Part shown: positions 35,053 to 36,752 of the stretch, piece by piece
Layout of the letters: the number at the start of each line of letters is the position of its first letter
How positions within the stretch are numbered: position 1 is the stretch's first letter
Assembly (NCBI GenBank): GCA_003279875.1
Contig: QCGN01000001.1
Coordinates: 124,001 to 188,000, forward strand
Reading direction: 5' to 3'
Length of the DNA stretch: 64,000 bases
Origin: Prochlorococcus sp. AG-388-D03
GTDB taxonomy: Bacteria; Cyanobacteriota; Cyanobacteriia; PCC-6307; Cyanobiaceae
Translations under genes and position numbers: made by a program
Notes under the pieces: model-generated
Database searches by the model: none
What the model was told of the DNA's origin: nothing
What the model saw: only the letters and a program-made list of their open reading frames with translations

Positions 35053-36153
35053 TTATAAATGAATCATTTGCGAAGAGCTTATAAAAGATTGATTGAATTT
35101 ATCTAAATGAGTAGCACTTATAAAACATTGACTATCTTTCCCAACCGAATTCAATAAAAGATTTTGCCTATTAATATCAAGCTCGGCCAAGACATCATCC
35201 AAAATAAGCAGCGGAGGTAAATTTATCATTTTACGTAATAAATCGAGTTCGGCCATTTTTAGAGCTAAAATAAAAGTCCTTTGTTGACCGGATGAGCCGT
35301 ATTTTCTAATAGAAATATCATTAATCAAAAATTCTATATCATCACGATGAGGTCCAAAGCCACATTTACCAGTTAATGCTTCTATTGATCTCTGCTTTTG
35401 TAATTGTTCCACTATTTTATTACTTATTACTCTTTCTTCTTCTTCTTCCTGATTTATATTTTCAATACCAGAAAGATAATTTATACCGATTTGCTCTGTA
35501 GATTTACTTAAATGATTATGCCAATATTCAACATAGGGTCTTATTTTTGCTAGCGCTCTTCTCCTACGCCTAAAAATCCTTGTGCTAATTAATGACATTT
35601 GAATATCAAAACTATCAATAACTTCTGAAGATTGATTTTTTTGAAAGCTTTCTGAACGCCAAAAATGACTTCTTTGCTTTAAAAGTCTATGGAATCTATG
35701 AATCAATTCTACATAAACCGGTTCAAGCTGAGAAACAACTTTATCAATCCATATCCTTCTATAACTAGGCTCACTTTTAACAATATTGATATCGTTTGAA
35801 CAAAAACATACACTTCTAATATAATTTTTTATTTCACTCTGTTTTTTCAATAAAGAATCATTAACATAAATCTTTTTAGCTCCTTTCCTAAATAAATTTA
35901 CTTTCAAATCATCAGTGAAATCAATTTGACCAGCAATAGCTGCCATCTCACTATCATTTTCTATTAAGTCCTTATCACTTAATGCTCTACTAGACCTTAA
36001 TTGACTAAGAAATTCGACTGATTCAAGCAAATTCGACTTGCCGATACCATTACAACCAAGAACAATAGCTCTTTGTTCATGAAGATCAATCTCAAAACTT
36101 TTATGGTTTCGAAAATTATTTATTTTTAAGTTATTTAAAAAAATTTTTTTAAT
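35053..36153 (-). CDS. recF: DNA repair protein RecF with apparent ATT start
   Basis: SMC-like ATPase that loads RecA at gaps through RecOR. The frame gives Walker A GCNGIGKSN (33-41), signature GSSGQQRTF and Walker B LLILDDVLAELD. The conserved N-terminus (IKKIFLNNLKINNFRNHKSF) is fully in frame, but no ATG, GTG or TTG occurs between the upstream TAA and the Walker motif. The best start is ATT 36153, where homologues have a Met. A TTG at 36030 would delete Walker A. 366 aa with ATT. Either a rare AUU start, a recent start-codon mutation, or a sequencing error. Confidence 0.85.
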   Translation of the reverse strand: MKKIFLNNLKINNFRNHKSFEIDLHEQRAIVLGCNGIGKSNLLESVEFLSQLRSSRALSDKDLIENDSEMAAIAGQIDFTDDLKVNLFRKGAKKIYVNDSLLKKQSEIKNYIRSVCFCSNDINIVKSEPSYRRIWIDKVVSQLEPVYVELIHRFHRLLKQRSHFWRSESFQKNQSSEVIDSFDIQMSLISTRIFRRRRRALAKIRPYVEYWHNHLSKSTEQIGINYLSGIENINQEEEEERVISNKIVEQLQKQRSIEALTGKCGFGPHRDDIEFLINDISIRKYGSSGQQRTFILALKMAELDLLRKMINLPPLLILDDVLAELDINRQNLLLNSVGKDSQCFISATHLDKFNQSFISSSQMIHL

Positions 36154-36220
36154 GCGTGACTTAATTAAATTAGCTAAATTTAGGTTATTTAGAATTTCTT
36201 TAAAGAAATTGAAAAATTAA

Positions 36221-36294
36221 GGGCATGTAGCTCAGTTGGATAGAGCATCAGATTCCGGTTCTGAGTGTCGGGGGTTCGACTCCCTCCATGCTCG
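36221..36294 (+). tRNA. tRNA-Arg(CCG)
   Basis: 74 nt. Acceptor GGGCATG pairs with CATGCTC (one G-T), discriminator G. The anticodon stem-loop TCAGA-TTCCGGT-TCTGA gives CCG, reading CGG. Regular D-arm (GCTCAGTTGGATAGAGC) and T-arm (GGGGGTTCGACTCCCTC). It diverges from recF, with about 67 bp between them. Confidence 0.95.
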
Positions 36295-36305
36295 TAATTA
36301 AAGAT

Positions 36306-36752
36306 TTAAAGTTTATAACCCATTACCCTAATACCATTAGGGTCTAATATAAAGCCACTATCTTCTAAACTTTTAAATGAAGACGGTGGGGCCTGGACTG
36401 AAATACTACATCCTGGCATTTCCCTATTTATTTTTTCAAGAGTCGCTTGAAGTAATACTGCGTAAAAAAGATTTTGATTATTACCTTTCTCGGCGCTTAG
36501 ATTCCATAAGTTAGCATTCAGTCCTCTATCTGATGTGACCCTTACAAAGCCATATAGTTTATTCTTGTATTCACATTGAATAGTAAAAAAGAAATTACTA
36601 TTTTTTATAGCAAGATACAACTTTTGAGTGGGAAATGACTCACAACCGCAATTTACCAAGAGTCTATTTATGTCCTTAGCAATTGGAATTTGAGAAGAAT
36701 TAATAAAATAACCTTGTGGAAGAATTAGTTTTTTAGTTGAAAAATATTGCAA
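36306..36752 (-). CDS. GNAT acetyltransferase-like protein
   Basis: 148 aa with TTG start at 36752, three bases after the ppc stop. The pattern of a central LYGFVRVTSDRGLNANLW strand and a C-terminal SFKSLEDSGFILDPNGIRVM fits a GNAT-like fold, but the acetyl-CoA Q/RxxGxG/A loop is not clear. The substrate is unknown; translation is probably coupled to ppc. Confidence 0.6.
   Translation of the reverse strand: MQYFSTKKLILPQGYFINSSQIPIAKDINRLLVNCGCESFPTQKLYLAIKNSNFFFTIQCEYKNKLYGFVRVTSDRGLNANLWNLSAEKGNNQNLFYAVLLQATLEKINREMPGCSISVQAPPSSFKSLEDSGFILDPNGIRVMGYKL

Follow-up and report, generated by a model that had tools for sequence, protein, structure and literature searches.

Where is translation of recF initiated in Prochlorococcus sp. 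AG-388-D03? The window, the whole stretch of 64,000 nucleotides that was analysed, carries on its minus strand a recF frame in which no standard start codon can give the conserved RecF N-terminus. Comparison with related genes favours, at a probability of roughly 0.8, the reading that translation of recF, in the window as in most members of its family, begins at AUU, in some at AUC, where other families have AUG or GUG; the codon has probably been kept for a low level of RecF.

The reading frame of recF

The frame runs open between a TAA at 36219-36217 and its stop at 35053. It is devoid of ATG, GTG and TTG until a TTG at 36030-36028, three codons past the Walker A lysine. A sequence-only reading of this DNA had described a recF with ATT in place of a standard start and a TTG just behind that lysine, the use of which would give a dead protein. 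The lack of a standard start and the place of the TTG were confirmed. The features of the frame are as follows.

35053..36144, minus strand: recF coding sequence from the putative AUU start, 363 codons plus stop (TIGR00611 profile match, 5z67_A alignment)
36142..36144, minus strand: ATT, putative initiation codon (AUU) of recF, from the comparison of rows across the family and other families
36034..36057, minus strand: Walker A, GCNGIGKS, which starts 29 codons past the AUU
36028..36030, minus strand: TTG, first in-frame standard start codon, which would remove Walker A
36137..36150, minus strand: A7-T7 tract, with the A/T junction inside the start codon; among relatives the leader differs in length by one base
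36151..36153, minus strand: ATT taken as the start by the sequence-only reading; leader, not conserved
36217..36219, minus strand: in-frame stop TAA upstream of recF, from the sequence

The gene is recF. Read from 36144, the protein matches TIGR00611 with an E-value of 2.5e-83 and 280.1 bits, above the curated cut-off of 172, and its residues 3-345 cover positions 1-339 of the 339 profile positions. Read from the TTG, the match starts only at profile position 38 and Walker A is lost. In the closest solved RecF chain, 5z67_A, residue 4 is aligned to residue 2 of the protein read from 36144, which places the natural N-terminus at 36144.

Conservation of the start codon

The codon at 36144-36142 was compared in recF genes (rows) that were aligned locally and with the FRN motif as anchor. 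The closest set of 117 rows consists of 37 from the genus of the window, the window itself appearing twice (L001 and L112), and of the best 80 of 204 contig matches, 79 named Prochlorococcus and one Synechococcaceae. For the rest of the family, 85 rows were hand-picked from 201 genomes, with one or a few representatives of each genus sampled. The search covered 59 genera, four of them without a match and one (g44) with a weak match only. Two rows were dropped before counting, L165 with a contig end inside recF and L183 as a duplicate of the stretch in L144; L002 and L142 proved to be genes other than recF. Outgroup rows were obtained for 19 of 23 other cyanobacterial families. The rows are related, and the counts given below are not independent trials.

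ATT occupies the codon in 117/117 closest rows, representing 103 distinct genes. The 85 other family rows have ATT in 52, ATC in 22, ATG in four (L173, L203, L205, L209) and other codons in seven; the ATG rows are as expected of a revertible start. At the same distance from the FRN motif, the 19 rows from 19 other families show ATG (12) or GTG (7). The recF of the window matches the whole TIGR00611 profile and differs from all 19 outgroup families in its initiation codon. AUU or AUC is found in 48 of the 54 sampled genera and is retained down to about 40% protein identity. The remaining six genera have ATG, either at the codon (g31, g71, g74, g81) or one to six codons upstream and in frame (g32, g72); the seven rows with neither ATT/ATC nor ATG at the codon are those of g32 and g72. 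The offset of Walker A from the AUU/AUC is the same in all 191 AUU/AUC rows. Judged from these alignments, AUU at 36144-36142 is almost certainly the start codon of recF in the window.

The sequence-only reading was thus right in proposing an AUU start, the best explanation of the locus, and misplaced it by nine bases. It had taken the ATT at 36153-36151 for the beginning of the conserved N-terminus. A start there would be in frame, three codons before the conserved ATT, and is very improbable: the 117 closest rows have ACA (67), ATA (20), ATT (18), ACT (3), CAC (3), TTA (2), ATC (2), TCA (1) and ACC (1) at this place, and in 23 family rows an in-frame stop is located there or between there and the AUU/AUC. 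ATG does not occur at 36153-36151 in any of the 117 closest rows, the window included. Homologues with Met before KKIFL, as stated in that reading, were not encountered either. The nearest case is L018, L049 and L087, in which a run shorter by one base brings ATG CAC AAA AAA ATT into frame.

The fragmentary state of the genome (52 contigs, 80% complete) could suggest a sequencing or assembly error hiding an ATG, or a recent point mutation silencing recF in this cell, both of which had been offered as alternatives. The ATT is present in all closest rows, single-contig genomes among them (G015, G022, G154, G176). Internal stops are absent from the listed recF matches of the genus. Independent genomes with open recF frames cannot share an error or a silencing event, and a silencing mutation misfits a trait present in 48/54 genera. 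The chance of either is negligible.

The third base of the codon is T or C in all AUN rows other than ATG. ATA is absent from the site in the 85 family rows (0/85), while it makes up 19.8% of the Ile codons in the 74 AUU/AUC genes among them; the count refers to the 85 rows, as 0/74 would be empty for rows chosen as ATT/ATC. Among the 103 distinct closest genes ATA is likewise absent from the site (0/103), while 46.5% of their Ile codons are ATA.

These observations bear on a further reading, in which AUU is the start and a neutral relic, tolerated by the family without selection for a low RecF dosage. The four sampled genera with ATG at the codon still carry recF, in line with such tolerance. 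Yet a single substitution regains AUG, and 48/54 genera have kept AUU/AUC over the range to about 40% protein identity, with the third base alternating between T and C and A absent in 85 rows. A neutral relic is regarded as a possible but lesser explanation. Selection for low RecF dosage, argued from analogy with known systems, is moderately favoured.

In a RecF tree the g32/g72 clade, with its ATG, is flanked on either side by AUU/AUC rows, and it is in this part that the outgroups are attached. Hence, AUU/AUC apparently goes back to the base of the family or close to it. The start classes require 19 changes on this tree, compared with a mean of 48.5 after shuffling. The tree was calculated from 120 rows with the start residue left out, using a quick IQ-TREE run and a midpoint root; 53 of 117 inner branches have support under 80.

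The frame upstream of the AUU

In the closest rows, the leader bases vary in length and sequence, while the codons from 36144 onward stay in register. The distance between a nearby GC and the ATT is 9 nt in 111 rows, 8 nt in three and 10 nt in three, so the upstream frame is broken. Standard starts upstream and in frame exist in 26/117 closest rows, 20 of them 27-35 codons up.

Among the 74 AUU/AUC rows outside the genus, 63 have no in-frame standard start anywhere upstream, and 70 have none within 9 codons. In 23 of the 74 the ATT/ATC follows an in-frame stop after just one or two codons, none of which is a standard start (e.g. TAG AGA AAC ATT, TGA CCC ATT, TGA ACG ATT). Eleven rows do carry a standard start in the open frame above the AUU/AUC; in four it is no more than 9 codons away: ATG directly before ATT in L178, ATG AAA ATT in L197, GTG GCG ATT in L202, and an ATG six codons up in L167. 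These four genes may use the upstream standard start instead of AUU. Downstream, the first standard codon lies 2 to 42 codons in, and at least 14 in 65/74.

A small out-of-frame ORF begins at an ATG 13 nt before the AUU in 105/117 closest rows, the window not among them. It extends over 8 codons across the AUU in 86 rows. In L018, L049 and L087, with one base less, the ATG is in frame.

Translation could be envisaged to begin at this ATG and to switch into the frame of RecF where the A run (ATG CAC AAAAAAAA TTTTTTT) allows transcriptional slippage or a +1 frameshift. Transcriptional slippage, Buchnera included, is treated in a review (PMC5009743). One A less joins the ORF to RecF, as the shorter leaders of L018, L049 and L087 illustrate, and for the genus alone the idea is attractive. 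The 16 nt upstream are free of ATG in nine closest rows, the window accounting for two of these, and in 16 closest rows the ORF stops after two codons, before the run (ATG CAT TAA). Outside the genus, 62/74 AUU/AUC rows are without ATG in any frame within 28 nt upstream and keep the same AUU/AUC. Slippage was rejected as improbable, and a conserved upstream ATG reached through a corrected frameshift, which the sequence-only reading had allowed for, misfits a trait found in 48/54 genera.

Start codons of other genes

General laxity of start codons in the family was considered and rejected. As a control, 130 ORFs were taken from the window and from 40-kb stretches of three relatives, each 150 aa or longer and with a relative. 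Seven of the 130 lacked a standard start within 10 codons of the point where conservation starts. Three of the seven are recF (window, G115, G137). One encodes ribosomal protein L3 and is a leader artefact, the L3 ATG being in register with that of its relative. The remaining three have an ATG 13-14 codons in and look like conserved leaders. In the fourth genome, G148, recF escapes the flag with a standard codon 7 codons in. Among the 31 ORFs of the window recF is the only one flagged. In a cruder control, five further ORFs of the window, likewise 150 aa or longer, lacked a standard start within 3 codons but showed one by codon 10. The translation factor gene infC has ATG in 29/31 family rows, the others showing ATG at the next codon and TTG, respectively (31 rows from 54 genomes with a match).

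Leader and neighbourhood

Two features lie upstream of the frame.

36221..36294, plus strand: tRNA-Arg(CCG), divergent neighbour of recF, conserved beside it
36170..36176, minus strand: TAGCTAA, possible -10 element of a recF promoter, proposed from the sequence

The divergent tRNA-Arg(CCG) stands beside recF in 117/117 closest rows, 83/85 rows of the rest of the family and 2/19 of the other families. The gap between the tRNA and the recF start measures 74-78 nt in the closest rows. It is only 25 nt, to the aligned start, in g32 (L159-L163) and 36 nt in g72 (L153). In g32 and L153, where an in-frame ATG also stands just upstream of the aligned start, a recF promoter would need to be located within the tRNA gene or beyond it.

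An element TANHTWA starts 22-31 nt upstream of the start in 66/74 AUU/AUC rows outside the genus, and would fit a -10 box followed by a leader of roughly 15-20 nt. The TAGCTAA of the window sits slightly further up than this range. A simple promoter scan found no sigma-70 promoter in 36100-36330. A Shine-Dalgarno-like word is absent in 58 of the 74 rows. For Prochlorococcus, PMC5607370 considers a possible dependence on S1 or on leaderless initiation.

Codon 2 of recF encodes Arg in 53 of the 74 AUU/AUC rows outside the genus, and 37 of the 53 use CGG; given the relatedness of the rows, the counts are not independent. CGG accounts for 19% of the Arg codons in the rest of the 74 genes and is expected to be read by the divergent tRNA-Arg(CCG). 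In the window, codon 2 is TTT. A search for recF relatives in viral contigs confirmed none.

Proposed mechanism

The ordinary fMet initiator tRNA would read the AUU, giving a protein that begins with Met-Phe-Leu-Asn. As with other starts of this type, initiation is predicted to be poor and to be repressed by IF3; the codon would be kept since RecF thereby stays low. A start codon that tunes RecF expression, as raised in the sequence-only reading, is plausible. Weak, IF3-sensitive translation and selection for low RecF are proposed by analogy with infC, sigR and pcnB. On this basis, weak translation of recF is very probable. Excess RecF is harmful in E. coli. A real regulation of recF through the IF3 level is a doubtful extension of the analogy. 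Still more speculative is the proposal that picocyanobacteria gate recombinational repair by start-codon fidelity, in which an old AUU/AUC start would be under selection and RecF output would follow the IF3 level or the ribosome state, with infC itself mostly starting at AUG.

The RecF(O)R genes of marine Synechococcus WH7803 are described in PMC7393227 as mostly upregulated in a UV shift, so recF is expressed. The recF passages of PMC5101192 and PMC7393227 contain nothing on the start of the gene. An earlier report of an AUU start for recF was not found in the part of the open-licence literature examined.

Comparison with known systems

Few genes starting with AUU or AUC have been characterised, infC and pcnB among them; sigR has GTC. 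The gene infC starts with AUU in E. coli and with ATC in Streptomyces and is subject to autoregulation by IF3, a repressor of non-standard starts, those of infC and sigR included (PMC5472188). The recF gene shares with infC a conserved AUU/AUC initiation codon and, by analogy, an expected weak and IF3-sensitive expression. Unlike IF3, RecF is not a translation factor, and a direct feedback loop is not expected. An autoregulation of IF3 of the E. coli type is not evident in the family of recF, because its infC has ATG in nearly all rows.

For E. coli pcnB, an AUU start that limits expression is cited by reference title in PMC1780047, the main text of which prints pncB. Both genes would represent nucleic-acid enzymes kept scarce by an AUU start, in the case of recF by analogy. 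In contrast to pcnB, the recF trait spans most of a bacterial family, AUU alternates with AUC, and the recF start is deduced from comparison.

The start of Streptomyces sigR is GTC in 32 of 34 genomes and GTT in two (PMC5472188). As in recF, the non-standard start is lineage-wide and the third base switches between pyrimidines. Codon and gene differ, and sigR has been established by experiment whereas recF rests on comparison. The sigR gene has a strong conserved ribosome-binding site, unlike most of the recF rows outside the genus. A further published AUU case, for which two species are named, was also deduced from sequence; the recF trait differs in being family-wide.

Implications for the family

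In 99/117 closest rows, the first downstream standard codon lies 38 or 66 codons in, past Walker A. Gene callers limited to ATG, GTG and TTG may therefore truncate RecF in the Prochlorococcus family. The dosage of recF bears on repair. Selection for weak initiation would have an unusually clear natural example in an AUU/AUC start of this gene kept in 48/54 genera.
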